A stretch of DNA of 64,000 nt from contig NZ_JAQNDO010000001.1 in the NCBI RefSeq assembly GCF_028369105.1, positions 4,804,501 through 4,868,500 of the forward strand. Reading direction: 5' to 3'. The stretch comes from Polyangium mundeleinium (GTDB lineage Bacteria > Myxococcota_A > Polyangia > Polyangiales > Polyangiaceae). The notes beneath the pieces were generated by a model that had not been told where the DNA came from, did no database searches, and worked only from the letters and a program-made list of their open reading frames with translations. Shown here piece by piece: positions 6,357-23,672 of this stretch. Each line of letters begins with the position of its first letter. Positions within the stretch are counted from its first letter, which is position 1. The position numbers were made by a program, and so were the translations under genes.

Positions 6357-6478
6357 TGTGGACCCAATCGATCCGCAGAAAAAGCGCCTCGACGCGCTGC
6401 GTCCTTCGCCGCCGCGAACCTTCCGTTCGCGCCCCTTGCGCGGAAGAGCGCACCTCTGCGAAGGTTCTAACCCCTCGT

Positions 6479-9524: not shown

Positions 9525-11048
9525 ATGAGCAAAGACGAAGAATGGGTCATGATTGCTCTGGACCCGAAGATGTCTCGCCGCCAGGGGATGCCGCCGCAGC
9601 TCCCCATTCCCAAGAGCGAGTTCGAGGGTCTGGCCGACAAAGGCCTGTCCATCGACAACGCCCGCAAGTGGATCAAGTCGTTCCTCAACGACTCGCCCGC
9701 GGGCAAGGACGGCAACTGGCGCAAGAAGAACAGCCAACTCGTCTCGGCGCTGGAGGTCTTCCTCGACAAGGCGCCGCTGCTCGATCGCGCGCAGAAGGGT
9801 TTCGCCGAGAACGACTTCGAAAAGGCGCTCTCCGCGCTCAAGCGCATCGCCTCGATGGATCCGGACGATCACGCCGCGCGCCTGAACCTCGCCGCGGCGC
9901 AGACGGCCCTGCGTGATTACCCGGCCGCGCTGAAGACGTACCAGTCGCTCCGCAAGACCTTCGAAGGCGACGCGGATTATCACGTGGGCCTCGGCCAGGT
10001 CCACGCGACCCTGAGCAACAAGGACGCGGCGATCGACGAGTTCGTCCTCGCGCTCGAGGCGCAGCCCGACTGCCAGCCCGCGCTCGACGCGCTCGCCAAG
10101 CTCGGCGTCCTCGTGCCCGTCTACGAGAACCCGCGCGACGCCACCTCGCTCACGTACGTGCGCAGCGACAAGGTCGACGAGTACCTCCCCTCCGTGTGGG
10201 ACGCCGAGGCGCGCGACGCCGCGTATTACCTGGAGCAGCTCGCGTACCACGAGCGCGAGGCCCGCCCGATCGTGGTGCTCGCGATCGCCGAGCGCATCAT
10301 CAAGCTCGGCGACGCCGGCTCCGCCGAGCGTGGCGAGCTCGCGAAGATCGCGGCCCTGCGCGACCTCGGCCGGCGGGACGAGGCCCTCGCGGCGGCGAAG
10401 GCGTACGTCGAGAAGGCGCAGTCGGCGGGCGCGTACGTCGAGCTCGGGCGCTCGCTCGCGGCCGCGGGCAACGTCGACGAGGCGCGCGCGGCGCTCGACA
10501 AGGCGCTCGAGGCGGATCCGGGGGATCTCCTCGCGCTCCAGTATCGCTTCTGGCCCGCGGACGCGGCCACGAACATCCAGGGCGTCTCGAACGCGATTCC
10601 GGCGCTCACGGCGTTCGCCGAGGCGCACCCGAACGCGGTCGGCGCGTGGCGCTCGCTCGCGCGCGCGAAGATCGCCACGGGCGCGAAGGAGGAGGGCATC
10701 GACCTCCTCAAGAAGGCCGTCGCGCTCCGCCCCGAGGACGACGACCTCCGCGCCGAGCTCTGGACGCAGCTCGGCAACGAGAAGCGATACCAGGAGATCG
10801 TCGAGGACGCGGGCAAACTCGAAAACCTGGCCAAGCGCGACTGGAAGCTCCGCTGGAACGAGGCGGAGGCTTACCTCGGCCTCGAAAAGAAGATCGAGGC
10901 GCGCGGCGCGTTCTCGGCCATCAATTTCGACGACTCGCTGCACGTCGACATCCGCAAGCGCGCCAAGCGCGCGGTGAAATCGATCGACGAGGGCCTGACC
11001 CTCGGCGGCGTGATGTCCAATCCGGAGACGCCGCCCGCGGCGACCTGA
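9525..11048 (+). CDS. TPR-repeat protein
   Basis: A 507-residue soluble protein starting at ATG 9525 (MSKDEEWVMIALDP). Residues 95-270 and 330-470 contain tetratricopeptide-like helix pairs: the pattern of Ala8, Gly/Ala and Pro32-like positions is visible in the segments around FEKALSALKRIASMDPDDHA and VDEARAALDKALEADPGDL. No signal peptide or enzymatic motif is seen. It follows the tail-anchored kinase by 64 bp and could act as its scaffold or substrate; this is inference from position only. A strong intrinsic terminator follows. Confidence 0.85.
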   Translation: MSKDEEWVMIALDPKMSRRQGMPPQLPIPKSEFEGLADKGLSIDNARKWIKSFLNDSPAGKDGNWRKKNSQLVSALEVFLDKAPLLDRAQKGFAENDFEKALSALKRIASMDPDDHAARLNLAAAQTALRDYPAALKTYQSLRKTFEGDADYHVGLGQVHATLSNKDAAIDEFVLALEAQPDCQPALDALAKLGVLVPVYENPRDATSLTYVRSDKVDEYLPSVWDAEARDAAYYLEQLAYHEREARPIVVLAIAERIIKLGDAGSAERGELAKIAALRDLGRRDEALAAAKAYVEKAQSAGAYVELGRSLAAAGNVDEARAALDKALEADPGDLLALQYRFWPADAATNIQGVSNAIPALTAFAEAHPNAVGAWRSLARAKIATGAKEEGIDLLKKAVALRPEDDDLRAELWTQLGNEKRYQEIVEDAGKLENLAKRDWKLRWNEAEAYLGLEKKIEARGAFSAINFDDSLHVDIRKRAKRAVKSIDEGLTLGGVMSNPETPPAAT

Positions 11049-14792: not shown

Positions 14793-15314
14793 GACGTCTC
14801 CTGGTCTCTGCCCGGGGCCGATTTCTCGCGCCATCGGGGGCTTCGTGGGTCCCCGGGGCTCGGAAGGGCGGCGACTCTACCAGCGAGGGCCGTCGTTCCA
14901 TAGCCTCCCGATGACGGCACTTTGCTGGCCGTCCGGTGCGGCCTCCGCCCGTGGCATCCGCGATGCAGAGCGTCATGGGCCTCGGCGCGGGTGCGCATCT
15001 CGTTCTCGATGCGTGTCTGGGGCGGGGATCGAAAGAAAATGAGATAAGCGGGAACTTTTTTGTTGCAAAGTCGATCCGAGACGAGTATCTCTCGCCGGAG
15101 AGTTTCTACATGTTGATCCGCCCTACGACCGACCGAAACCACGAACGAGCCCAGCTGATGGCAGCAGGCGTCGCGTGCGTGGCGTTCGATTGGTTGCAGC
15201 GTGCGAGTCATCTGGCGCCAAAGTCCGGTAGAACCGAGTCGTTTCGCGGGTATACGCTTCGTGATTCGCGGCAACTCGGCAACCCGGAGGAAGGCACCTA
15301 GGCGGTAGAGCAAG

Positions 15315-15374
15315 CGTCATTCTGACGACTGCGAAGGCCGCCTCGGGAGATCCCAGGCGGCCTTCGGCGTTTTT
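15315..15374 (+). repeat. Structured terminator-like repeat, copy 1
   Basis: Two consecutive hairpins: CGTCA-ttc-TGACG, then GAAGGCCGCCT with AGGCGGCCTTC around a GGGAGATCCC loop, followed by TTTTT. The same order (CGTCA-type hairpin, then GGCCGCC-type hairpin and T-run) recurs at 16464 and 16918 within the tRNA array. Confidence 0.65.
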
Positions 15375-15831: not shown

Positions 15832-15904
15832 GGATCCGTAGTCTCAATGGTAGAGCAGCCGCCTTTTAAGCGGAAGTGTGGAGGTTCGAGTCCTCCCGGA
15901 TCCA
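15832..15904 (+). tRNA. tRNA-Lys(TTT), irregular D-arm
   Basis: Acceptor GGATCCG/CGGATCC; anticodon loop CTTTTAA gives anticodon TTT; T-arm GGAGG TTCGAGT CCTCC; discriminator A, as expected for Lys. CCA is not encoded. An extra T sits in the D-stem (TAGTCTC instead of TAGCTC), which would leave a bulge. First tRNA of the array. Confidence 0.8.
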
Positions 15905-16101
15905 CCTCCTTATAGAGAGAAAAGCTGGGCGATCCATTTTGAAGCAAACGGGGTTGGAAAGAGACGAAAATGAAATCGACGAGCCGATCAAAACATTTCC
16001 TTGCCTCGAACGTCGAAATGGATGTATAACGAAACCGAGGGGACGGGGAAGGGCAGGGGAGAGCGCCTGCGCGTAAGCACGCGGGATGGGCTCTCTCGTG
16101 C

Positions 16102-16177
16102 GGATCCGTAGCTCAATGGGCAGAGCGTCCGCCTTTGAAGCGGAAGCGTGGAGGTTCGAGCCCTCCCGGATCCTCCA
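16102..16177 (+). tRNA. tRNA-Gln(TTG)
   Basis: Acceptor GGATCCG/CGGATCC, D-arm GCTC/GAGC, anticodon loop CTTTGAA (TTG), T-arm GGAGG TTCGAGC CCTCC, CCA encoded. The discriminator is T, unlike the usual G of Gln tRNAs. The body is nearly identical to the flanking Lys(TTT) and Gln(CTG) genes, so these three arose by local duplication with anticodon change. Confidence 0.85.
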
Positions 16178-16289
16178 TGCTGCGCAATGAGCGTGGCAGC
16201 GAGATGTGAAAATAAAATCGACGGATCGGTGAATGAAATGGTTGGCCGAACGTCGAAATGGATGTAGAGAGACGGGCGAGGGAATGGCG

Positions 16290-16460
16290 ATGGGCAAGCG
16301 TCTGTATCACGAGAGCACGAAGGGGAACGCTGGCGAGCTGCCGGACGCTGGCCTCTTCGGGGTCTCGGGGTTGCAGATCCTTTCGCGGGATCAGGCGGCG
16401 AGCGAATCGCGCTCGGCGGCGAATCATGGCCTCGAGCCTCTCGATGCGGGTGGATCCTAG
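16290..16460 (+). CDS. Array microprotein 1 (56 aa)
   Basis: Small frame beginning MGKRLYHESTKGNAGELPDA and ending GLEPLDAGGS, preceded by a GCGAGGG purine-rich site; an ATG two codons upstream (16284) is an alternative start. It is paralogous to the frame at 16756-16914: the conserved pattern is MGKxLYxExxKGNAGEL, SGL, AAxES, GLEPLDxGGS-stop, with length differences that are multiples of three. Conservation of frame and stop between diverged copies supports translation. Function unknown; the spacing between tRNA and terminator suggests co-transcription with tRNA-Gln. Confidence 0.5.
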   Translation: MGKRLYHESTKGNAGELPDAGLFGVSGLQILSRDQAASESRSAANHGLEPLDAGGS

Positions 16461-16463
16461 GAT

Positions 16464-16523
16464 CGTCACGACGTGACGTGTCCGAGGAGGCCGCCCGGGA
16501 AACCTGGCGGCCTTCTTCGTTTT
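16464..16523 (+). terminator. Structured terminator-like repeat, copy 2
   Basis: CGTCAC-GAC-GTGACG hairpin followed by AGGCCGCC...GGCGGCCTT hairpin and TTTT, starting 3 bp after the microprotein 1 stop codon. Same architecture as copies at 15315 and 16918. Confidence 0.65.
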
Positions 16524-16566
16524 CGCGCCTCGAGCGCGGCGGTGGAGACGCGGGGGACGTGGATTT

Positions 16567-16642
16567 GGATCCGTAGCTCAATGGGCAGAGCGTCCGCCTC
16601 TGAAGCGGAAGCGTGGAGGTTCGAGGCCTCCCGGATCCTCCA
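16567..16642 (+). tRNA. tRNA-Gln(CTG)
   Basis: As the preceding Gln gene but anticodon loop CTCTGAA (CTG). Acceptor GGATCCG/CGGATCC, discriminator T, CCA encoded. T-arm 3' half starts GCCTCC, leaving the T-loop slightly altered (TTCGAGG). Confidence 0.85.
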
Positions 16643-16755
16643 TCTGCCGAATGCAATGACGGCAGACGACGAAAATAAAATCGACGGGGTGGCGAATAAA
16701 ATGGTTGACCCGAACGTCGAAACGAAATAAAGATAAACGGGGCGAGGGAAGAGTG

Positions 16756-16914
16756 ATGGGCAAGCATCTGTATAACGAGGACGCGAAGGGGAACGCCGGC
16801 GAGCTGCTGGGCGAGAGCCTCTCGGGCCTCCTGCGGAGCCCTTCGCGAAATGATGCGGCGAACGAATCGAGCCCGGTGCGTGGTCTCGAGCCGCTCGATA
16901 CGGGTGGATCCTAA
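16756..16914 (+). CDS. Array microprotein 2 (52 aa)
   Basis: Paralogue of the 16290-16460 frame: starts MGKHLYNEDAKGNAGELLGE and ends RGLEPLDTGGS. A GCGAGGGAAG purine-rich site lies upstream. Two in-frame indels relative to copy 1 and mostly conservative changes suggest selection on the protein. No membrane span, signal or known motif is visible. It is followed 3 bp later by the third copy of the structured terminator. Confidence 0.5.
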   Translation: MGKHLYNEDAKGNAGELLGESLSGLLRSPSRNDAANESSPVRGLEPLDTGGS

Positions 16915-16917
16915 GAT

Positions 16918-16979
16918 CGTCACGACGTGACGTATCCGAGGAGGCCGCCCGGGAAACCCCTGGTGGTTTTCTTCGTTTT
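16918..16979 (+). terminator. Structured terminator-like repeat, copy 3
   Basis: CGTCACGACGTGACG hairpin and AGGCCGCC paired to GGTGGTTT through several G-T pairs, then T-rich end. Substitutions relative to copy 2 keep pairing as wobble, which supports an RNA-level structure. Confidence 0.55.
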
Positions 16980-17020
16980 GCGCATGTAGCGCGGCGGTGG
17001 GGTCCGGGGGAAATCATGAC

Positions 17021-17138
17021 GGGCTGTCGAGAAACGCCGCGAGCACCTCGAAGCTAGGGAGGGCGACGCAGGAATACTCCTGTATTCCAAGGAGCCCGAC
17101 CGACGATTCGAGGCGCGCAGCAACTTTCTCGACAGCCC
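17021..17138. repeat. Palindromic mosaic repeat, copy 2 (perfect terminal inverted repeats)
   Basis: A 118-nt element whose ends are exact complements: GGGCTGTCGAGAAA and TTTCTCGACAGCCC. Inside are paired CCTCGAA/TTCGAGG and a central GGAATACtccTGTATTCC palindrome. The right end lies 5 bp from tRNA-Tyr. It may be a nonautonomous mobile repeat (REP/MITE-like) or a structured RNA; no protein is encoded. Confidence 0.7.
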
Positions 17139-17143
17139 GACAC

Positions 17144-17222
17144 GTGGACGCTGGGCATGGGTGAGCCCAGGTGGCTGTAAACCATCCGCGTTTGCTTGGA
17201 GGTTCGAGTCCTCCCGTCCACA
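17144..17222 (+). tRNA. tRNA-Tyr(GTA)
   Basis: Acceptor GTGGACG/CGTCCAC, D-stem GGGC/GCCC, anticodon stem GGTGG/CCATC, loop CTGTAAA (GTA), variable region CGCGTTTGCTT, T-arm GGAGG TTCGAGT CCTCC, discriminator A as usual for Tyr. The variable arm is short for a bacterial Tyr tRNA. CCA not encoded. Confidence 0.82.
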
Positions 17223-17280
17223 CCGGCGCGTGAACCCACGCGCTCGAGGAGACGTGCGCCCGCGATGCGCCGTCTGCTTC

Positions 17281-17351
17281 GGATTCGTAGCTCAAGGGTA
17301 GAGCAGCCGCCTCTTAAGCGGCAGGCGAGGGTTCGATCCCCTCCGGATCCA
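17281..17351 (+). tRNA. tRNA-Lys(CTT)
   Basis: Acceptor GGATTCG/CGGATCC, D-arm GCTC/GAGC, anticodon loop CTCTTAA (CTT), T-arm GAGGG TTCGATC CCCTC, discriminator A. CCA not encoded. A short D-loop makes it 71 nt. Confidence 0.85.
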
Positions 17352-17446
17352 CGACGCATCCCTCCTCTTCGGAGGCGGGACTCGTTCTATGACAATCGAT
17401 TCCGATACACAATGCGATGCCGCAGGGGCTCGTCGCCCCTGCGCGT

Positions 17447-17520
17447 TTCAACGTAGCTCAAGCCGGTAGAGCACTCGCCTGTTAAGTGAGGTGATGGGGG
17501 TTCGAATCCCTCCGTTGGAG
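17447..17520 (+). tRNA. tRNA-Asn(GTT)
   Basis: Acceptor TTCAACG/CGTTGGA with one G-T pair, anticodon stem CTCGC/GTGAG, loop CTGTTAA (GTT), T-arm GGGGG TTCGAAT CCCTC, discriminator G as expected for Asn. CCA not encoded. Confidence 0.85.
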
Positions 17521-17528
17521 CCGTCTTT

Positions 17529-17601
17529 GCCCTTGTCGCTCGATGGTCGAGCGCCCTGCTTCGTATCCAGGGTCTCCCCGGCTCGATTCCGGGCGAGGGC
17601 T
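17529..17601 (+). tRNA. tRNA-Thr(CGT), enlarged anticodon loop
   Basis: Acceptor GCCCTTG/CGAGGGC, D-stem GCTC/GAGC, T-arm CCCGG CTCGATT CCGGG (first T-loop base C). Anticodon region CCTGC-TTCGTAT-CCAGG places CGT at 34-36, but 31-39 is a C-C mismatch, opening the loop to nine bases. The amino acid call depends on this alignment. Discriminator T. Confidence 0.65.
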
Positions 17602-17679
17602 CCGCTTCTGTTGGTGGGGGGTCGTCGTGCTCCTTGAAACGGGCACGACGGCCCCCCACCAATCCCCCTGTTTCACCAT

Positions 17680-17755
17680 GCCCCGTTCGTCTAGCGGTCA
17701 GGATACCGGCCTTTCAATCCGGTTGCCGGGGGTTCGACTCCCCCACGGGGCGCCA
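17680..17755 (+). tRNA. tRNA-Glu(TTC)
   Basis: Acceptor GCCCCGT/ACGGGGC, D-arm TCTAGCGGTCAGGA, loop CTTTCAA (TTC) flanked by a C-T mismatch at 31-39, T-arm CGGGG GTTCGAC.. pairing with CCCC, discriminator G, CCA encoded. Otherwise close to canonical bacterial Glu tRNA. Confidence 0.87.
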
Positions 17756-17760
17756 TTGCG

Positions 17761-17833
17761 TGGGCGTTACTCATCTGGCTGATGAGGGCAGGTTGTGACC
17801 CTGTGAAGGCGGGTTCGATTCCCGTACGCCCAA
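17761..17833 (+). tRNA. tRNA-His(GTG)
   Basis: Acceptor TGGGCGT/ACGCCCA, D-stem CTCAT/ATGAG, anticodon stem GCAGG/CCTGT, loop TTGTGAC (GTG), T-arm GCGGG TTCGATT CCCGT. The base before the gene is G, available as G-1, but position 73 is A rather than the C normally opposite G-1. Confidence 0.82.
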
Positions 17834-17845
17834 CCGAGGGACGGG

Positions 17846-17912
17846 TCGGATGATCTCGGTTATCCAACTCTAAATTGGTGCAATAGCACCGAGATCAAAA
17901 AGCTCATCCGTC
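17846..17912 (+). ncRNA. Structured leader RNA upstream of the TROVE gene (Y RNA candidate)
   Basis: Between tRNA-His and the TROVE start is a region with strong secondary structure: GATCTCGGT (17852-17860) pairs with ACCGAGATC (17888-17896), enclosing a CCAA-CTCTAAA-TTGG hairpin and a short TGC/GCA hairpin. An outer GGATGA/TCATCC pairing competes. Ro60-family genes are often next to Y RNA genes, so this is a candidate ligand or a regulatory leader. No conserved Ro-binding sequence was recognised, hence low confidence. Confidence 0.35.
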
Positions 17913-17970
17913 GCTCTTTCGTTTGCTTGCTTCTTTTTTCGCTCGCCCGCAGCGCGGGCCGGAGGTTCCC

Positions 17971-19632
17971 ATGGCCAACTACATCCAGCACTTCGCCGCG
18001 CTGTTCACCCGGCAAAAGGACAAGGCGCGGCCCGACCAGGTCGAAAACGACGCCGGTGGCTTCGTCTTCGAGCTCGACGACTGGGCCCGCCTCGACCGGT
18101 GGCTCGTCCTCGGCTGCGAGGGCGGCACCTACTACGCCACCGAGCGCGTGTTGACGCAGGACAATGCGCGCGTCCTCGGCCGTTGCCTCGACGCGGACGG
18201 CGAGCGGACGATTCGGCGGATCGTCGAGATCAGCCGCTCTGGCCGCGCGCCCAAGAACGAGCCCGCGATCTTCGCCTTGGCAATGGCCGCGGGGCACGCA
18301 CGTCCCGAGGTCCGCAAGTCCGCGCTTGTGGCCTTGCCGGAGGTTTGTCGCACCGGAACGGATCTCTTCCACTTCGCGCGAACGGTGGAGGGCTTCCGGC
18401 GCTGGGGCCGCGGCCTTCGGAGCGCGATCGGCGCGTGGTACCAGGGCAAGAGCGCGGATGAATTGGCCTACCAGGCCGTGAAGTACCGGCAGCGGGACGG
18501 CTGGAGCCACAAGGACCTTTTGCGGCTCTCGCATCCGACGCCCGTCACGGACGAGCACGGCGCGATGTACCGCTGGATCGTCGGCGGAATGGACGCCGTG
18601 AAGAACGAGGCTGCCAAGGGCGGCGCGCTCGACCCCGAGAAGCTGCCGGCCCTCGTGCGGGCCTTCGAGGAGGCCAAGGACGCGCCGCGCGAGCGGCTCG
18701 TCACGCTCGTGCGCGAGCATCGGCTCACGCACGAGATGGTGCCCACGGAGTGGAAGAACGACCCTGCCGTGTGGGAAGCGCTGCTCCCCCACATGCCGCA
18801 GACGGCGCTGCTCCGTAACCTCGGCAAGATGACCGCCGTAGGATTGCTCGCGCCCATGAGCGCGGCCGCGAGGCTCGTGGCCACGCGTCTCACGGACGTC
18901 GAGCGGCTCCGGCGGGCCCGGATTCACCCGGTGAGCGTTCTCTCCGCCTTGCGTATTTATGCGCAAGGCCGGGGCGAGCGTGCCCAGAAGCGCGAAAACG
19001 CGCTCACCTGGGAGCCGGTGCGCGAGATCGTGGACGCCTTGGACGAGGCGTTTTACCTCGCATTCCGGTCGATCGAGCCGACGGGGAAGAAGCACCTGCT
19101 CGCCCTCGATGTGTCGAGCTCGATGGATTCGGGCACGATCGCGGGGATCCCGGGTCTCACGCCCCGGGTCGCGAGCGCGGCCATGGCGATGGCGACGGCG
19201 CGTATCGAGCCGTCGTTCGGCACCCTGGCCTTTGCCTCCGCGGGCGGCGCATTTGGCCCTCGCGGCGCCTCGGGCGTCATGTCCTTGCCTCTGTCGCCGA
19301 AGCAACGCCTCGACGACGTGCTCGGCATGGTCGGTGGTTTGCCCTTCGGCGGCACGGACTGCGCGCTGCCGATGATATGGGCTCAAAAGAACAAGGTCGA
19401 GGTCGACACGTTCGTCGTCTACACGGACAGCGAGACCTGGGCGGGTGAGATTCATCCGTTCCAGGCGCTACGCGACTACCGTCAGGCGATGGGCCGTCCC
19501 GCAAAGCTCGTCGTGGTTGGCATGACCTGCACGGGCTTCACGATTGCCGATCCGCAGGACCCCGGCATGCTGGACGTCGTGGGCTTCGACGCGGCCGCAC
19601 CGCAGGTGATGGCCGATTTCTCGAGGGCCTGA
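17971..19632 (+). CDS. rsr: TROVE-domain protein (bacterial Ro60/Rsr orthologue)
   Basis: A 553-residue ring-type RNA-binding protein of the Ro60 family. The N-terminal two thirds form the TROVE HEAT-like ring (about 20-380, beginning IQHFAALFTRQKDKARPD). The C-terminal third is a von Willebrand A domain with an intact metal site: DVSSSMDSG (MIDAS DxSxS), a Thr in GGTDCALPM, and the acidic YTDSETW. Ro60 binds misfolded structured RNAs through its central hole and Y RNAs on its surface, and in bacteria cooperates with PNPase or other nucleases in rRNA and tRNA handling. Start chosen at ATG 17971 with GGAGG 5 bp upstream. It lies inside a tRNA array, flanked by tRNA-His and tRNA-Asp, and may share the array transcript. 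Confidence 0.93.
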   Translation: MANYIQHFAALFTRQKDKARPDQVENDAGGFVFELDDWARLDRWLVLGCEGGTYYATERVLTQDNARVLGRCLDADGERTIRRIVEISRSGRAPKNEPAIFALAMAAGHARPEVRKSALVALPEVCRTGTDLFHFARTVEGFRRWGRGLRSAIGAWYQGKSADELAYQAVKYRQRDGWSHKDLLRLSHPTPVTDEHGAMYRWIVGGMDAVKNEAAKGGALDPEKLPALVRAFEEAKDAPRERLVTLVREHRLTHEMVPTEWKNDPAVWEALLPHMPQTALLRNLGKMTAVGLLAPMSAAARLVATRLTDVERLRRARIHPVSVLSALRIYAQGRGERAQKRENALTWEPVREIVDALDEAFYLAFRSIEPTGKKHLLALDVSSSMDSGTIAGIPGLTPRVASAAMAMATARIEPSFGTLAFASAGGAFGPRGASGVMSLPLSPKQRLDDVLGMVGGLPFGGTDCALPMIWAQKNKVEVDTFVVYTDSETWAGEIHPFQALRDYRQAMGRPAKLVVVGMTCTGFTIADPQDPGMLDVVGFDAAAPQVMADFSRA

Positions 19633-19653
19633 ATTGCAGTCGAAGGACGAAGG

Positions 19654-19675
19654 GGCGCGTGCCTCCACACGCGCC
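19654..19675 (+). terminator. GC-rich hairpin after the TROVE gene
   Basis: GGCGCGTG-cctcca-CACGCGCC, 22 bp after the TROVE stop codon. No T-run follows, so it may be a processing or pausing hairpin rather than a true terminator. Confidence 0.4.
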
Positions 19676-19689
19676 TCCTCGCCCGGTTT

Positions 19690-19763
19690 GCTCCCGTATG
19701 CTCTCTGGTGAGGCAGCCTGATTGTCGATCAGGTGAGGGCGGGTTCGAATCCCCCCGGGGGCG
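19690..19763 (+). tRNA. tRNA-Asp(GTC), copy 1
   Basis: Acceptor GCTCCCG/CGGGGGC, D-stem TGC/GCA, anticodon stem CCTGA/TCAGG, loop TTGTCGA (GTC), discriminator G as expected for Asp. The T-stem has an internal C-C mismatch (GCGGG against CCCCC). CCA not encoded. Confidence 0.8.
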
Positions 19764-19764
19764 C

Positions 19765-19853
19765 TGGGACAATCGTCGTGTACACCCGTCATCACACCCT
19801 CGCCCGGGGACCGGGCCGAACGATGATGGTTATCGCAATTGTCCCACGTTTTT
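19765..19853 (+). ncRNA. Long hairpin RNA with T-run downstream of the TROVE gene (Y RNA candidate)
   Basis: The ends TGGGACAAT and ATTGTCCCA pair exactly. Inside, CCGTCATC pairs GATGATGG (one G-T), and TCG-CCCGG pairs CCGGG-CCGA around a GGA loop. The result is one 82-nt rod with internal loops, followed by CGTTTTT. A long terminal helix with internal loops plus a U-tail is the general plan of Y RNAs, which are encoded beside Ro60 genes. Sequence elements of known Y RNAs were not recognised, so identity is inference. Confidence 0.5.
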
Positions 19854-19977
19854 GCCGTCGTAGCTCAGTGGGTAGAGCGCCAAAATACCTTCTCCGACAC
19901 CTCGTCCGAGTCGGGCCGATAGGGGAAGGTTATCATTCTCCATGAGGTGGACACGGGTTCGAATCCCGTCGATGGCA
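19854..19977 (+). ncRNA. Oversized tRNA-like RNA with an extended anticodon-side arm
   Basis: The 5' end (GCCGTCG TA GCTC AGTGGGTA GAGC) and 3' end (ACGGG TTCGAAT CCCGT CGATGGC A) are good tRNA halves with a paired acceptor stem, D-arm and T-arm. Between them are about 75 nt where about 27 are expected, and no 5-bp stem with a 7-nt anticodon loop is found. Instead ATACCTTCTCC pairs GGGGAAGGTTAT, enclosing further hairpins. It may be a tRNA interrupted by an insertion, or a tRNA mimic such as the tRNA-like domain of bacterial Y RNAs. No amino acid is assigned. Confidence 0.7.
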
Positions 19978-19992
19978 CAACAGTTGCGGTTC

Positions 19993-20063
19993 GGGGTGAT
20001 GGTTCAACGGAAGAACACTGCCCTTGCACGGCAGGGATCGGGGTTCGAGTCCCCGTCATTCCA
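19993..20063 (+). tRNA. tRNA-Ala(TGC)
   Basis: Acceptor GGGGTGA/TCATTCC contains the G3-T70 pair that specifies alanine. D-stem GTTC/GAAC, anticodon stem CTGCC/GGCAG, loop CTTGCAC (TGC), T-arm CGGGG TTCGAGT CCCCG, discriminator A. CCA not encoded. Confidence 0.87.
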
Positions 20064-20082
20064 CTCGTTCGCAGGAGCCGCT

Positions 20083-20126
20083 CGGAAACACCATGGCCAT
20101 GAGCGGGAGGCCAGGCGGTGTTTCTG
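20083..20126 (+). other. Hairpin-forming spacer in the array
   Basis: GAAACACC pairs GGTGTTTC around an inner GGCC/GGCC stem in the 77-nt gap between two Ala tRNAs. It has no T-run. It may be an RNA processing signal or another small structured RNA. Confidence 0.35.
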
Positions 20127-20140
20127 GGCGTCTCCCCTCT

Positions 20141-20213
20141 GGGGTCGTAGCTCAGTGGGTAGAGCACCTGGCTGGCAGTCAGGGGGTCGCCGGTTCGAAT
20201 CCGGCCTTCTCCA
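20141..20213 (+). tRNA. tRNA-Ala(GGC), weak acceptor stem
   Basis: D-arm GCTC/GAGC, anticodon stem CCTGG/TCAGG, loop CTGGCAG (GGC), T-arm GCCGG TTCGAAT CCGGC. The acceptor GGGGTCG/CTTCTCC has mismatches at positions 5 and 6 but keeps the alanine-specifying G3-T70 pair. Discriminator A. Possibly a degraded gene. Confidence 0.72.
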
Positions 20214-20223
20214 CTCTCGTTTT

Positions 20224-20295
20224 GCCCTCGTATGCATCTGGTGAGGCAGCCCGATTGTCGATCGGGCGAGGGGAGTTCGATCCTCCTCGGGGGCG
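20224..20295 (+). tRNA. tRNA-Asp(GTC), copy 2
   Basis: Acceptor GCCCTCG/CGGGGGC, D-stem TGC/GCA, anticodon stem CCCGA/TCGGG, loop TTGTCGA (GTC), T-arm GGGAG TTCGATC CTCCT, discriminator G. A diverged second copy of the Asp gene at 19690. Confidence 0.83.
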
Positions 20296-20304
20296 CCTTT
20301 GAAT

Positions 20305-20378
20305 GGGGTGATGGTTCAACCTGGGTAGAACACTGCCCTCGCACGGCAGAGATCGGGGTTCGAATCCCCGTCATTCCA
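20305..20378 (+). tRNA. tRNA-Ala(CGC)
   Basis: Acceptor GGGGTGA/TCATTCC with G3-T70, D-stem GTTC/GAAC, anticodon stem CTGCC/GGCAG, loop CTCGCAC (CGC), T-arm CGGGG TTCGAAT CCCCG, discriminator A. Close duplicate of the Ala(TGC) gene. Confidence 0.87.
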
Positions 20379-20384
20379 CGAATT

Positions 20385-20455
20385 GCGGTGGTGGTTCAAC
20401 GGCAGAATTCGAGTGTGCCATACTCGAGATGGGAGTTCGACTCTCCCTCACCGCG
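20385..20455 (+). tRNA. tRNA-Gly(GCC)
   Basis: Acceptor GCGGTGG/TCACCGC, anticodon stem CGAGT/ACTCG, loop GTGCCAT (GCC), T-arm GGGAG TTCGACT CTCCC. Discriminator G rather than the usual U of Gly tRNAs. CCA not encoded. Confidence 0.83.
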
Positions 20456-20460
20456 CTCAT

Positions 20461-20534
20461 GCACCCGTATTGCTAGTGGGTCAGGCGGCCAGACTCTCAA
20501 TCTGGTGACGCGGGTTCGATTCCCGCCGGGTGCG
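20461..20534 (+). tRNA. tRNA-Glu(CTC)
   Basis: Perfect acceptor GCACCCG/CGGGTGC, anticodon stem CCAGA/TCTGG, loop CTCTCAA (CTC), T-arm GCGGG TTCGATT CCCGC, discriminator G as expected for Glu. Confidence 0.87.
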
Positions 20535-20580
20535 CAAATTCGCCGAGGGGGTGAGCTGCTGACTCGCCCTCTCTTTCTTC

Positions 20581-20647
20581 TCCCTGTCCTGGCGGCCAGG
20601 CGTCGGTTTACGAATCCGACTGGCGAGGTTCGACTCCTCGCAGGGAG
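20581..20647 (+). tRNA. tRNA-Arg(ACG), short D-arm
   Basis: Acceptor TCCCTGT/GCAGGGA, a reduced D-arm (CTGG-CGG-CCAG), anticodon region TCGGT-TTACGAA-TCCGA giving ACG with a T-T mismatch at 31-39, T-arm GCGAG G TTCGACT CCTCGC. Only 67 nt. Discriminator G. Confidence 0.72.
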
Positions 20648-20652
20648 ACCTT

Positions 20653-20726
20653 GCCCTCGTCCTGCCGGCATTGCAGGCGCGAGCCTCCGAAGCTCGACGT
20701 TCCAGGTTCGACTCCTGGCGAGGGTA
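20653..20726 (+). tRNA. tRNA-Arg(CCG)
   Basis: Acceptor GCCCTCG/CGAGGGT (G1-T72), D-stem CTGC/GCAG, anticodon stem CGAGC/GCTCG, loop CTCCGAA (CCG), T-arm CCAGG TTCGACT CCTGG, discriminator A. Confidence 0.83.
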
Positions 20727-20739
20727 TGTGCCAATTCAT

Positions 20740-20816
20740 CTGGGTGTGGCTCAACCTGGTAGAGCGCCGGCTCGGGGTGCCGGAGGCTGGGGGTTCGAAT
20801 CCCCCCACCCAGACCA
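20740..20816 (+). tRNA. tRNA-Pro(GGG) with C33
   Basis: Acceptor CTGGGTG/CACCCAG, anticodon stem CCGGC/GCCGG, loop TCGGGGT. In this register the anticodon is GGG and position 33 is C instead of the near-universal U. Discriminator A, CCA encoded. Forms a set with Pro(TGG) and Pro(CGG) nearby. Confidence 0.78.
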
Positions 20817-20817
20817 T

Positions 20818-20892
20818 GTCTACGTGGCGAAACTGGCAAACGCGGCGGTCTTAGAAACCGTTTTGATGGGGGTTCGAATCCCTCCGTGGACA
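20818..20892 (+). tRNA. tRNA-Leu(TAG) without a long variable arm
   Basis: Acceptor GTCTACG/CGTGGAC, Leu-type D-arm, loop CTTAGAA (TAG), T-arm GGGGG TTCGAAT CCCTC, discriminator A as in Leu. Only about six bases (TTTGAT) separate the anticodon stem from the T-stem, so the class II variable arm is missing; total 75 nt. Confidence 0.78.
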
Positions 20893-20897
20893 CTCAT

Positions 20898-20979
20898 GTC
20901 ATCGTGGCGGAATGGCATACGTAGCAGGCTGAGATCCTGTGCCCGAAAGGGCGTGTGGGTTCGACTCCCACCGATGACA
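20898..20979 (+). tRNA. tRNA-Leu(GAG)
   Basis: Acceptor GTCATCG/CGATGAC, loop CTGAGAT (GAG), a proper variable arm GCCC-GAAA-GGGC, T-arm GTGGG TTCGACT CCCAC, discriminator A. Confidence 0.87.
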
Positions 20980-20998
20980 CCGAAATGGCAGTACTTCT

Positions 20999-21072
20999 CT
21001 GGGTGTGGCTCAATCTGGTAGAGCGCCGGCTTTGGGAGCCGGAGACTGGGGGTTCGAATCCCTCCACCCAGA
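20999..21072 (+). tRNA. tRNA-Pro(TGG)
   Basis: Acceptor CTGGGTG/CACCCAG, anticodon stem CCGGC/GCCGG, loop TTTGGGA (TGG), T-arm GGGGG TTCGAAT CCCTC, discriminator A. CCA not encoded. Confidence 0.88.
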
Positions 21073-21087
21073 CTCGCGGCGAATCAT

Positions 21088-21165
21088 CTGGGTGTGGCTC
21101 AATCTGGCTAGAGCACCGGCGTCGGGAGCCGGGGATTGGGGGTTCGAATCCCTCCACCCAGACCA
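21088..21165 (+). tRNA. tRNA-Pro(CGG)
   Basis: Same body as Pro(TGG) with loop GTCGGGA (CGG) and one extra D-loop base. Discriminator A, CCA encoded. Confidence 0.87.
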
Positions 21166-21166
21166 T

Positions 21167-21253
21167 GTCCACGTGGCGAAACTGGCAAACGCAGCGGTCT
21201 CAGATACCGTGCCCGTGAGGGCGTTGAGGGTTCGAATCCCTCCGTGGACACCA
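21167..21253 (+). tRNA. tRNA-Leu(CAG)
   Basis: Acceptor GTCCACG/CGTGGAC, loop CTCAGAT (CAG), variable arm GCCC-GTGA-GGGC present, T-arm GAGGG TTCGAAT CCCTC, discriminator A, CCA encoded. Confidence 0.88.
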
Positions 21254-21263
21254 TCCTCCCGCT

Positions 21264-21336
21264 GCTCGGGTGACGAAATGGCAAACGTGGCCGGCTCAAA
21301 CCTGGTCGATTGGGGGTTCGAATCCCCCTCCGAGCA
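21264..21336 (+). tRNA. tRNA-Leu(CAA) without a long variable arm
   Basis: Acceptor GCTCGGG/TCCGAGC, anticodon stem GCCGG/CTGGT, loop CTCAAAC (CAA), then only CGATT before the T-stem GGGGG TTCGAAT CCCCC. Discriminator A. Like Leu(TAG), it lacks the class II arm. Confidence 0.76.
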
Positions 21337-21398
21337 CCGGATCATCGCAGTCGGAGAAAACAATGAAGAAGAAGAGACGGTAGACGGAGAGGTGGATC

Positions 21399-21914
21399 AT
21401 GACCGCGCAAACGTTGCTGCTCACGCCTTGGATGGTGCCACATCAGGTCATCTCCTGGCAGACCGCCGTGACCCTGAGCTTTCTGGGGAAGGTGGAGGTA
21501 CTCGAGACGTACGACGACGAGATTCGTTCGCCCACGATGACCATTCGCGCGCCGGCCGTCGTCCGGCTGAAGCGTCATGGGAATTCGCACAAGCGCGGCA
21601 TCAAGTTTTCCCGCACGAACGTGTTCGTGCGGGACGACTTCCGCTGCCAGTACTGCGGCGTCCAGAAGGACGCGGGCGATCTCACGTACGACCACGTCCT
21701 GCCGCGCGTGCAGGGTGGCCGGACGGTATGGGAGAACATCGTCGCGTCTTGCCAGAGCTGCAATGCGAAGAAGCGTGGTCGCACCCCGGAGCAGGCGGGC
21801 ATGAAGCTCTTGAAGAAGCCCGAGAAGCCCCGGTGGTTGCCCGCGGCCCCCGTCGTCCGGCTCGGCGCGCGCAGAATCCCCGAGATCTGGGTGCATTACT
21901 GCGCTGCGAGCTGA
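21399..21914 (+). CDS. HNH endonuclease
   Basis: A 171-residue protein with a complete HNH nuclease core at about 85-140: RDDFRCQYCG (first CxxC), DHVLPRVQGG with the catalytic His, an Asn in WENIVASC, and CQSCNAKKRG (second CxxC). The N-terminal 80 residues are beta-rich with an ETYDDEIRSPT segment. GGAGAGG lies just upstream of the ATG. HNH proteins of this kind are common in phages, group I introns and mobile elements, but also occur as free-standing chromosomal genes. Located in the array between tRNA-Leu(CAA) and the Ser tRNAs; it could help the array move. A strong terminator follows directly. Confidence 0.9.
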   Translation: MTAQTLLLTPWMVPHQVISWQTAVTLSFLGKVEVLETYDDEIRSPTMTIRAPAVVRLKRHGNSHKRGIKFSRTNVFVRDDFRCQYCGVQKDAGDLTYDHVLPRVQGGRTVWENIVASCQSCNAKKRGRTPEQAGMKLLKKPEKPRWLPAAPVVRLGARRIPEIWVHYCAAS

Positions 21915-21967
21915 GGTTCCCCCCCGCGCTTCGCGGCTGGGCGAAGCGCGCCCGCGGAACCTTTTTT
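21915..21967 (+). terminator. Strong intrinsic terminator after the HNH gene
   Basis: GGTTCC pairs GGAACC, with an inner GCGCTTCGC/GCGAAGCGC stem, followed by TTTTTT. It starts immediately after the HNH stop codon and would end transcription from the upstream part of the array. Confidence 0.9.
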
Positions 21968-21994
21968 GAACAATCCATTACCGAGGAGATACTT

Positions 21995-22234
21995 GTGACG
22001 CTCGATATGAATCAAATGGAGGGCGTTCGGATTCGTTTGCCCATGGAGTCTGCAGCCGTCGCTGCAGTCGTGCTCGTTGGTGTCCTGCTGCTCGCGATCG
22101 CCTCGCGGATCGTCGAGGCGAACGGGGCTTCATCGCCGGAAGGTGCGCGCTCGATGAGCGCGGCGTCGCCTTCCAACGCGCCCGACTCGGCGCGGTTGCT
22201 CGCGGATCGAGGACGCCCTGGGCGCCGGTTCTGA
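21995..22234 (+). CDS. Small single-span membrane protein
   Basis: A 79-residue frame starting at GTG 21995 with GAGGAG six bases upstream. Residues about 17-40 form one hydrophobic helix (AAVAAVVLVGVLLLAIASRI), followed by a short Ser/Ala/Arg-rich tail. No relatives recognised. It sits between the HNH terminator and tRNA-Ser(GGA). Confidence 0.55.
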   Translation: MTLDMNQMEGVRIRLPMESAAVAAVVLVGVLLLAIASRIVEANGASSPEGARSMSAASPSNAPDSARLLADRGRPGRRF

Positions 22235-22300
22235 GCATGACCGTCCAACGTACCCACGACCTTCACCCCCCGCGGCGCTGCGGCGCCGAGAGGGGGATTT

Positions 22301-22388
22301 GGAAGAAGATCTGATCAGGGATCAGGCCTGTTTGGAAAACAGTGCGCGCCCCGTCGAGGGGCGTGAGGTTCGAGTCCTCCTTCTTCCG
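22301..22388 (+). tRNA. tRNA-Ser(GGA)
   Basis: Acceptor GGAAGAA/TTCTTCC, long variable arm GCGCCCC-GTCGA-GGGGC, loop TTGGAAA (GGA), T-arm with TTCGAGT, discriminator G as required for Ser. The 27-43 pair is mismatched. Confidence 0.85.
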
Positions 22389-22392
22389 CCGT

Positions 22393-22478
22393 AGAGAGCA
22401 TTCCGGGTGTGGACCCGGCGCCGTTTTGAACACGGAGGGCAGCCTCGCTGCGGGGTTCGACTCCTCTGCTCTCTGCCA
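22393..22478 (+). tRNA. tRNA-Ser(TGA)
   Basis: Acceptor AGAGAGC/GCTCTCT, D-stem CCGGG/CCCGG, loop TTTGAAC (TGA), variable arm GCAG-CCTCG-CTGC, discriminator G, CCA encoded. Confidence 0.84.
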
Positions 22479-22482
22479 TGCT

Positions 22483-22565
22483 GGAAGACGAACTGATCAG
22501 GGATCAGACCTGTTTCGAAAACAGTGGGCACCCACGGGTGTGGGGTTCGAGTCCTCCGTCTTCCG
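22483..22565 (+). tRNA. tRNA-Ser(CGA)
   Basis: Acceptor GGAAGAC/GTCTTCC, loop TTCGAAA (CGA), variable arm CACCC-AC-GGGTG, discriminator G. Closely related to Ser(GGA), sharing CTGATCAGGGATCAG in the D-arm. Confidence 0.86.
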
Positions 22566-22577
22566 CCGTTTGTTTCT

Positions 22578-22661
22578 GGAAGCGAGAATCGGCCGTGGGG
22601 CCGAGCCCGTTTGCTACTCGGTGCGTGCCTCCGGCATGGTGTTCGACTCACCCCGCTTCCG
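22578..22661 (+). tRNA. tRNA-Ser(GCT)
   Basis: Acceptor GGAAGCG/CGCTTCC, anticodon region with GCT and a T-T mismatch at 31-39, variable arm GTGCC-TCC-GGCAT, T-arm GGTG TTCGACT CACC, discriminator G. Last tRNA of the array; it ends 6 bp before the stop of the convergent RNA polymerase-like gene. Confidence 0.82.
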
Positions 22662-22667
22662 CCGACG

Positions 22668-23672
22668 TCATTTCACGAGATGTTCGAGCCCCGAGAGCAC
22701 GAGCACCTTCATGCCTTCCTCCCCGAGCGGCTCCTGCGGGCGTTCGGACGCGAGGCTCCACAAGGCGGAGACGCGTGACCCCGTTCCGCCCCGCGCGGCG
22801 CGGAGGCTTGCGGCCTTCGTGATCCACCCGCCGCCACTTGGGTTTGTCCGGGCGATCTCCACGAGCGCGGGCGTGAGCGCCTCCAGGAACAGCGTGGTCG
22901 CGTCCATCATCGGTGTTCGCTTGCCCTCTTCGTCGTCCTCGTCCTCGTAGATGCAGGGCTTTTCGAGATCGGGGTTCGCGAGGAGCTGGTCGACCGCCTC
23001 GATCGCCATCCGACGCTCGTTCTCGACGATGACGGCCGGCGCGTCGAGCTCCTTCAATCGACGGAGCCGGTTTCTCCGGTTCACGATGCGCCGATACGCA
23101 TCATGGATTGCGCGGCCGAAGCTCGCGTCGCCCACGAGCGCCAGGGATTCCTCCACGCTCGCCGCGCGCAGGGGAGGGGCGATCAGGGGGATCGACCACC
23201 AGACGAGCTCGTTCGGGGACCAACCATTCACGCGCTGCCCTGCGGCCTCGGCCTCGCCGACGCGCGAAAGGAGCGTGGCCGGGTCCTTGTAGGAGAGCTC
23301 CAGGAGGTCATCCTCGGTCATTGCGAGGAGCGGTGCGAGGAGCAGCCGCGCGGGCCAGGGGACCACGGGATCGACCATCGCGACGTGCGCGTATCGCCGG
23401 AAATCGGGCGGGTTTCCGAAGAGCTTCGGACACAGGAGCCCGCCCACCTCGGGCTGCCTTGTGCGGAAGTTCAGCGTCTCCGGACGCTCGACGTCGCCGG
23501 CGGACCACGAGGGCGTACGCTCGGAGGCCCCGGTTTCGAGGGAGAGATCGAGCGTACGGCCGCCGAGCGTGATGCGCAGCCCGAGCACACGGCCGAGCGC
23601 GCGGAGGCGCTGGAAGATCAGCGAGGAGGGCAGGTCCATCGACACGGTCACCGTGGCGGGTTCGTCGCGCAT
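22668..23672 (-). CDS. Stand-alone RNA polymerase beta-prime clamp-like protein
   Basis: A 334-residue protein matching only the N-terminal part of RpoC. RPETLNFRT (63-71) and GLLCPKLFG (78-86) correspond to RpoC KPETINYRT and GLFCAKIFG. The zinc-binding domain (four Cys) that should follow is deleted, and the frame resumes at the equivalent of the LPSRIGLLLDM region. Residues 158-232 match the clamp helices: YRRIVNRRNRLRRLKELDAP then IVENERRMAIEAVDQLLAN, the main sigma-binding coiled coil of RpoC. It ends with an acidic linker and a short helical tail, with no catalytic NADFDGD motif. It cannot polymerise RNA; it may bind sigma factors or clamp ligands as a decoy. Convergent with the tRNA array. 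Confidence 0.85.
   Translation of the reverse strand: MRDEPATVTVSMDLPSSLIFQRLRALGRVLGLRITLGGRTLDLSLETGASERTPSWSAGDVERPETLNFRTRQPEVGGLLCPKLFGNPPDFRRYAHVAMVDPVVPWPARLLLAPLLAMTEDDLLELSYKDPATLLSRVGEAEAAGQRVNGWSPNELVWWSIPLIAPPLRAASVEESLALVGDASFGRAIHDAYRRIVNRRNRLRRLKELDAPAVIVENERRMAIEAVDQLLANPDLEKPCIYEDEDDEEGKRTPMMDATTLFLEALTPALVEIARTNPSGGGWITKAASLRAARGGTGSRVSALWSLASERPQEPLGEEGMKVLVLSGLEHLVK

Follow-up and report, generated by a model that had tools for sequence, protein, structure and literature searches.

The question raised by this locus is why a gene for the RNA-binding protein Ro60 lies in the midst of a dense tRNA array, and what the unusually built tRNA-like RNA downstream of it represents. 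We analyzed a window of 64,000 nucleotides from Polyangium mundeleinium (NCBI RefSeq assembly GCF_028369105.1, contig NZ_JAQNDO010000001.1, positions 4,804,501 to 4,868,500 of the forward strand), in which all coordinates are counted from the first letter. A preliminary description of this window had listed 29 tRNA genes on one strand together with a Ro60/TROVE gene and an HNH gene, an inventory that ARAGORN, Rfam models and Pfam confirmed; the one tRNA-like RNA that it counted besides the 29 corresponds to 19854–19977 (124 nt). The Y-type module inside this RNA had not been recognised, and two further Y-RNA-type candidates, 17836–17916 and 19765–19846, had been overlooked. We put at about 0.65 the probability that the locus is a Ro60 ribonucleoprotein cassette in a reserve tRNA array, with 19854–19977 as an unpermuted, YrlA-like Ro60 partner made within tRNA transcripts. 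The elements central to this reading are the following.

17836–17916, plus strand: type I Y RNA candidate directly 5' of the Ro60 gene (descriptor score 42)
17971–19632, plus strand: Ro60/Rsr gene, TROVE and vWA domains (Pfam and structure matches)
19765–19846, plus strand: Y-type module with a plain closing stem instead of a tRNA body (descriptor type II score 37; fold z −2.69 for 19762–19852)
19854–19977, plus strand: type II RNA, a tRNA body with a Y-type module in the anticodon arm (77.0 bits with model R1, 107 bits with model R2; family covariation)

The encoded protein combines a TROVE domain (PF05731, E 1.3e-46) with a C-terminal vWA domain (PF25045, vWA_Ro60, E 2.6e-62) and is thus a member of the Ro60/Rsr family. 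Among solved structures it comes closest to Deinococcus Rsr (E 1.2e-122) and to animal Ro60 (E ~1e-120), represented by 2nvo and 1yvp, and it is 96–97% identical to the protein of four named Polyangium strains.

Near TROVE genes we observed a recurrent module, in which one helix is followed by a CGA-type internal loop, a further helix whose end is GG, and the sequence UUAY, with a CUU-type sequence opposite. A review describes the Ro60 site of animal Y RNAs as a helix of seven pairs in which one C is bulged and three nucleotides bulge out on the other side (PMC4726728, in the part covered). A descriptor of the module was run on 47 TROVE loci, comprising the window and the second locus of its genome, as well as named relatives and further genomes, with some contigs short and the relatives not independent of one another. 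It gave 66 matches on the Ro60 strand and 2 on the other, versus 10.5 per strand in dinucleotide shuffles, so that about one sixth of the matches may be due to chance; the false positives include some in coding sequence (e.g., both matches in L036). The word GGTTATC occurs three times in the window, always in the array, and proves nothing alone, because 30 of 100 shuffles reach the same count. The module takes two forms, an open-ended type I, as in 17836–17916, and a type II that is closed at its outer end. The type I candidate consists of helix A, a CGGA-type internal loop, helix B and GG-UUAUC, and ends within helix A. Its full stretch folds so that helix A and the base of helix B form (−31.6 kcal/mol), shorter cuts (17836–17906, 17842–17912) giving other folds, and the descriptor finds equivalents in Polyangium, Sorangium, Byssovorax and G036 loci. 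The plain-stemmed element at 19765–19846 has a counterpart, again by the type II descriptor, in all five Polyangium relatives.

In type II RNAs the module usually sits within a tRNA: it interrupts the anticodon arm and leaves the acceptor, the D arm and the T arm intact. The window copy is matched end to end by RF00005 (49.8 bits) despite its insert; RF00005 is the sole Rfam family that it matches, and ARAGORN makes no call there. Genes of such chimeras are scored by Rfam as plain tRNAs. A group I intron was considered as the insert and rejected: the inserted sequence measures ~50 nt and adopts the fold of a conserved module of two helices.

From four Sorangium-type RNAs we built a covariance model, which retrieved 16 further RNAs at 55 bits or more, most of which had already been picked by our script. 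In the alignment of 20 sequences, 96.6% of cells were paired, with 74 two-sided changes compared with 18.6 in shuffles; these first 20 sequences shared GGUUA without exception, and their internal loop had a nearly invariant CG. With 37 sequences the paired cells amounted to 96.8% and the two-sided changes to 200 (49.9 in shuffles), and the covariation score of 0.561 exceeded both that of shuffled alignments (0.177) and that of slid versions (at most 0.132). Among the 37, compensatory variation was seen in the anticodon stem as well as in each of the two Y helices. Helices A and B, covarying in this set, make up the stem by which a Y RNA is recognised, with two helices and an internal loop close to the Ro60 site, and the acceptor, D and T helices, paired to 99–100% in the alignment, provide the tRNA-like domain that is characteristic of YrlA.

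Our final list holds 49 type II RNAs at 30 loci, namely 28 of the 47 TROVE loci and two plasmids of Picosynechococcus (PCC 7002 and PCC 73109), each plasmid carrying three chimeras directly upstream of TROVE. All 49 lie within ~6 kb of a TROVE gene because only that neighbourhood was searched, and close relatives are among them (6 Polyangium, two similar plasmids); outside the phylum, the spread is represented by plasmids and phages only. Several RNAs, all longer than 100 nt, were left off the list. Those at loci L113 to L143 are permuted, spanning or ambiguous forms: three in L113, L116 11493–11632, L125 7726–7874, L127 1793–1951, one each in L135, L139 and L143, and two in L141. The others are L068:6739–6843, L068:6664–6782 and L072:7508–7618, the last two scoring 23–24 bits.

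How much of the anticodon arm survives the insertion differs between copies. In 26 of the 49 RNAs a 3-bp stem and a 7-nt loop with U33 follow 3' of the module (3.0 in shuffles). Positions 27–28 additionally pair with 42–43 and position 37 is a purine in 17 of the 49 (0.2 in shuffles); this geometry was set post hoc, after the output of an earlier test with an uninterrupted 5-bp arm (4/49), and the shuffles preserve letters, not relatedness, in a set that holds close relatives. These 17 contain a full anticodon arm of 5 bp with a 7-nt loop, split between positions 28 and 29, and examples include Asn-GUU (PCC 7002), Lys-UUU, Phe-GAA, Tyr-GUA and Glu-UUC. The inner arm test was failed by 23 of the 49, and all five RNAs from the Sorangium genus belong to these. 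The window copy stands in between: it has the outer pairs and U33 but C37, its inner arm reading TCA-TTCTCCA-TGA.

The arrangement of these parts relates the chimera to YrlA (RF02553). The Rfam consensus of YrlA runs from a Y stem with a CgaA loop through a short helix, the T arm GCGGGuUCGAgaCCCGC, a hairpin (13 positions not shown), the D arm GUAGCUCAauuuGGUAGAGC, another short helix and CUUG back to the Y stem. If the partly hidden hairpin between the T and D arms is taken as the acceptor, YrlA and type II RNAs consist of the same parts in circularly permuted order. Common to both is a Ro60-type stem with a CGA internal loop, joined to the D, T and acceptor parts of a tRNA and located near Ro60 genes. 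YrlA ends in the Ro60 stem (PMC8394870, in the passages covered), whereas a type II RNA has the ends of a tRNA acceptor and a closed Y stem, and some type II copies keep an anticodon arm, unlike YrlA. The window RNA does not pass the RF02553 model, and the weak RF02553 matches in the window (27 bits) span two neighbouring tRNAs. The permuted form was detected in two actinophage loci (L135, L136) and a Nonomuraea locus, with RF02553 scores of 36–51 bits, below the gathering score. An unpermuted tRNA–Y RNA in tRNA arrays beside Ro60 presents itself directly as a candidate ancestor of YrlA; the literature passages covered offer no explanation of why bacterial Y RNAs resemble tRNAs. Among the papers listed in literature searches, whose coverage lacked the main bacterial Y RNA papers, none described a Y-RNA-interrupted tRNA or the unpermuted form, so that earlier publication is possible. 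The chimeras offer a testable system, also in a cyanobacterium, given the three copies next to TROVE in Picosynechococcus sp. PCC 7002.

Further searches were not confined to TROVE neighbourhoods. With model R2, the genome of the window yielded three RNAs longer than 100 nt, all within ~6 kb of its two TROVE genes, among the 150 of 9008 first-look candidates that were scored, so further copies may have been missed. The best of them was the window copy, and the other two lay ~6 kb from the second TROVE gene. When 60 genomes of the family were scanned regardless of TROVE, 13 of them gave 25 matches at E ≤ 1e-15; since stricter filters applied and 59 candidates were scored per genome, copies may be missing here as well. 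A TROVE gene lay within 7 kb on the same contig for 22 of the 25. Seventeen of the matches had been part of the model, and five of the other eight adjoin TROVE. At the second TROVE locus itself (G000:C1:50144–57249 and 67169–68299), the two chimeras stand ~6 kb upstream; the 20 kb stretch that holds them is devoid of ordinary tRNAs, and a gene for RtcB follows ~10 kb beyond.

TROVE was found in 28 of 377 genomes sampled from the phylum Myxococcota (E ≤ 1e-10). The preliminary description had staked its reading on the TROVE gene being linked to tRNAs in relatives, and this linkage was found: at least four tRNAs lie within 5 kb at 30 of the 47 loci (up to 35 tRNAs), and at least one at 33 of 47. 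The tRNAs near TROVE are on the Ro60 strand, the sole exception seen being a tRNA-Sec in L116, more than 5 kb off. The tRNA arrays thereby gain a recurrent RNA-binding partner.

On this basis we propose how the cassette may operate. It encodes Ro60 and three candidate RNAs with a module of the Ro60-binding type. The chimera 19854–19977 would be transcribed within a tRNA polycistron, and its acceptor, D and T arms would let ordinary tRNA enzymes trim it out. For YrlA it is reported that Rsr is held by the stem, and that the tRNA-like domain is a binding site for PNPase and a substrate of tRNA-modifying enzymes (PMC8394870, in the part covered); by analogy, a stable chimera could hold Ro60 on the inserted stem and offer its tRNA body to partners. 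It would represent an adaptor for Ro60 of the YrlA type, whose ends are those of a native, unpermuted tRNA. The divergent tRNAs of the array would form a spare set, which Ro60 and the Y RNAs might help to keep or survey under RNA damage.

Several observations weigh against this proposal. The layout of the module is that of the Ro60-binding part of animal Y RNAs, a likeness drawn partly from the Y1 sequence, and the GG-UUAY string was not found in 7 of the 49 type II RNAs. Covariation was scored on alignments (A5 and A6) that had been fitted to the structure, which favours it; shuffles and slides served as controls. Taken by itself, the window copy has an unexceptional fold (z −1.48). Ordinary tRNAs also score, up to ~51 bits with R1 and up to 63.5 bits with R2, and a few listed RNAs score no higher with R2 (L138:5753–5875, 43.5 bits; L144:4753–4875, 42.9 bits); low-scoring RNAs were listed on account of length, position and fold. 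The coupling of array and chimera is not strict: a type II RNA is present in 17 of 30 array loci and in 11 of the 17 TROVE loci without an array, so that the chimera accompanies Ro60 more closely than it does the array. At loci L070, L073, L079, L081, L115 and L124, both a group of four tRNAs and a listed type II RNA are missing. In the family scan, three matches are exceptions to the proximity: G036:C1:7743091 is ~160 kb from TROVE, the match in G399 stands at a contig start in a genome where no TROVE was found, and in G001 the match is on C5 and the second TROVE gene on C6.

Other explanations have to be considered alongside. A tentative extension would define a bacterial class of interrupted tRNAs with a Y RNA inserted at 28/29, in which the loop would be kept for a tRNA-acting enzyme, as nuclease bait or for splicing, and from which loss of the loop and permutation in tandem arrays could have given rise to YrlA. 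That baiting is the actual purpose, the tRNA body attracting tRNA-cutting nucleases while Ro60 acts as shield or damage reporter and the array provides replacement tRNAs, appears rather unlikely to us. Anticodon arms with differing anticodons are kept in about one third of the RNAs, and the passages covered of Hughes et al. suggest that the uncut tRNA-like domain of YrlA possibly competes with an anticodon nuclease (PMC7790460), a competition that chimeras with an anticodon loop would fit even better; mycobacterial tRNA arrays have likewise been discussed as a putative antidefence system (PMC12803027, in the part covered). Yet about half of the RNAs lack an anticodon arm to be cut, and in a PADLOC scan of three proteins for a nuclease or toxin partner, Ro60 was without a match and the HNH protein weakly matched HNH domains of several systems.

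Less probable again is that the Y module is the intron of a working tRNA, excised and followed by joining of the halves (e.g., by RtcB), with a mature tRNA and a released Y RNA as the products. The 17 split anticodon arms with U33 and a purine at 37 speak for it, the genome has RtcB genes, one of them at the second TROVE locus, and RtcB and Ro60 share common operons elsewhere (PMC7790460, in the part covered; Xanthomonas and Rhizobium plasmids). The 23 RNAs without an inner anticodon arm and the C37 of the window copy argue against it, as does the location of all RtcB matches outside the window. An RNA repair operon (rtcR-rsr-Y RNA-rtcBA), which has rtcB next to rsr, is accordingly not seen in the window; rtcA and rtcR were not searched for. 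Finally, one might regard the array as decaying and the 124-nt RNA as a broken, functionless tRNA with Ro60 as its neighbour by chance. The low scores of several array tRNAs and their divergence from the core tRNAs (see below) would suit such a view, but the covariation among 37 sequences, the repeated linkage to TROVE, seen across the phylum as well as on plasmids of cyanobacteria, and the genome search contradict it, and we consider it very improbable. The reading as a Ro60 cassette with a YrlA-like chimera in a spare tRNA array is the one we prefer.

Within the window, ARAGORN detected 26 tRNA genes, all on the plus strand between 15832 and 22567 and none elsewhere; Rfam models contributed three more, giving a total of 29 in 6.8 kb. 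Chance does not account for the tRNA genes of the array. Several of them score low (35–46 bits), and with at least 2 tRNA genes per kb that are redundant with the core set the array qualifies as a tRNA array unit. The remaining features are given below, tRNAs being called by ARAGORN unless stated otherwise.

15245–15372, plus strand: leader with terminator hairpin, 5' of the array; no Rfam family above gathering score
15832–15906, plus strand: tRNA-Lys (TTT)
16102–16177, plus strand: tRNA-Gln (TTG)
16567–16642, plus strand: tRNA-Gln (CTG)
17144–17224, plus strand: tRNA-Tyr (GTA)
17281–17352, plus strand: tRNA-Lys (CTT)
17447–17522, plus strand: tRNA-Asn (GTT)
17529–17601, plus strand: tRNA, probably Thr (CGT); RF00005 35.6 bits, ARAGORN Thr-CGT in relatives L037, L038, L039 and L045
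17611–17662, plus strand: long stable hairpin between tRNAs; z-score −8.1, 25-nt arms 88% complementary
17680–17755, plus strand: tRNA-Glu (TTC)
17761–17835, plus strand: tRNA-His (GTG)
19690–19764, plus strand: tRNA-Asp (GTC)
19993–20064, plus strand: tRNA-Ala (TGC)
20141–20214, plus strand: tRNA-Ala (GGC)
20224–20297, plus strand: tRNA-Asp (GTC)
20305–20379, plus strand: tRNA-Ala (CGC)
20385–20456, plus strand: tRNA-Gly (GCC)
20461–20535, plus strand: tRNA-Glu (CTC)
20578–20650, plus strand: tRNA-Arg (ACG)
20652–20727, plus strand: tRNA-Arg (CCG)
20740–20816, plus strand: tRNA-Pro (GGG)
20818–20893, plus strand: tRNA-Leu (TAG)
20898–20981, plus strand: tRNA-Leu (GAG)
20999–21073, plus strand: tRNA-Pro (TGG)
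21088–21165, plus strand: tRNA-Pro (CGG)
21167–21253, plus strand: tRNA-Leu (CAG)
21264–21338, plus strand: tRNA-Leu (CAA)
21399–21914, plus strand: HNH endonuclease-like protein (HNH_5, E 2.4e-14)
22301–22390, plus strand: tRNA-Ser (GGA)
22392–22475, plus strand: tRNA-Ser-like, anticodon TGA by eye; tRNA-Sec model 41.0 bits, below gathering score
22483–22567, plus strand: tRNA-Ser (CGA)
22578–22660, plus strand: tRNA-Ser-like, anticodon GCT by eye; tRNA-Sec model 29.8 bits, below gathering score; fold z −1.93 (22578–22664)

The genome of 13.25 Mb gave 71 matches to the tRNA model, and ARAGORN, applied to genome stretches retrieved from outside the array, found 46 tRNA genes with 42 anticodons. 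Of the 26 array tRNAs, 25 have anticodons that are also present there, Ala-TGC being the sole one without a counterpart in the stretches examined, and array and core tRNAs of the same anticodon are 51–77% identical; the array tRNAs are thus both redundant and divergent. The alternative tRNA set suggested by the preliminary description is borne out by this redundancy, and the notion that the array might hold the only copies of most of the genome's tRNA genes is rejected, since the anticodons recur among the 46 tRNAs elsewhere.

For the suggested mobility of the array the evidence is mixed. The same genes flank it on both sides in all five Polyangium relatives, whereas the neighbours differ in Sorangium, Byssovorax and G036: none of nine flanking proteins matched the available stretches from six loci (four of Sorangium and its genus, Byssovorax, G036). 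No integrase was present among the eight flanking proteins scanned, three of which had no Pfam family, and the GC content of the array is 63.4%, compared with 69% in the flanks. The leader at 15245–15372, a probable attenuator with a terminator hairpin, lies 0.3–0.6 kb upstream of the first tRNA in the window and in relatives. It is 95–99% identical in the five Polyangium relatives and still 77–80% identical in four Sorangium-genus loci and Byssovorax, despite their other neighbours; G036 retains just a 39-nt terminator part, and L041, whose contig is cut short, has no leader. Since leader and array are kept while flanking genes differ between lineages, the cassette seems to move between lineages as a unit and then to stay.

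An HNH homologue was found in 26 of 56 loci tested, namely in 25 of the 30 array loci, in one of the 17 other TROVE loci (L118) and in none of nine phage or plasmid loci. Mycobacterial and mycobacteriophage tRNA array units (PMC5966550, PMC12803027) likewise combine redundant tRNAs with an embedded HNH gene, and the word TROVE is absent from the main texts of these papers as far as covered. TROVE genes within tRNA clusters are already published for archaea: of the 29 archaeal tRNA gene clusters reported by Morgado and Vicente (2019), 20 contain one, and the parts covered of that paper describe pseudogenes and introns of tRNAs without mention of a Y RNA (PMC6333295). The actinophages Gordonia Boopy, Streptomyces Yaboi and Emma1919 have a Ro gene in or next to tRNA arrays, phage-borne unlike the array of the window; Emma1919 has an annotated HNH gene there, and the window HNH protein has no match in these phage loci at E 1e-8. 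A review of jumbo phages places TROVE proteins beside RNA repair (PMC7824862, in the part covered). The trn operon of Anabaena is also an extra tRNA operon, with 26 genes, but is plasmid-borne and repressed by TrcR, and the main text of that paper, in the parts covered, does not contain the word Ro60 (PMC10272220).

Some minor observations concern the array and its relatives. Hairpins like 17611–17662, which is possibly a terminator or a processing site, are visible in L037, L038 and L045. A tRNA-Gln unit of ~460 nt occurs as a tandem duplicate (16102–16557 and 16567–17011, 81% identical), and the minus-strand open reading frame 22668–23672, adjoining the array, partially matches RNA polymerase Rpb1 domain 1 (45.5 bits). 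Near TROVE in three class-level relatives (L112 ~6254–6398, minus strand; L119 ~10115–10290, plus strand; G393:C343:17813–17838) we noticed the 26-nt sequence TAACTATAACGGNCCTAAGGTAGCGA, presumably a part of 23S rRNA; in L112 and L119 Rfam returned no LSU match at E 0.01. There the descriptor assigns the sequence to the loop within a Y-type stem, and the RNA that bears it is possibly a Y RNA carrying an rRNA mimic. The array of G036 (L068) has nine descriptor matches and further mixed forms; at ~5575–5435 on its minus strand, a type I stem encloses a tRNA-shaped sequence with the anticodon CAT by eye.

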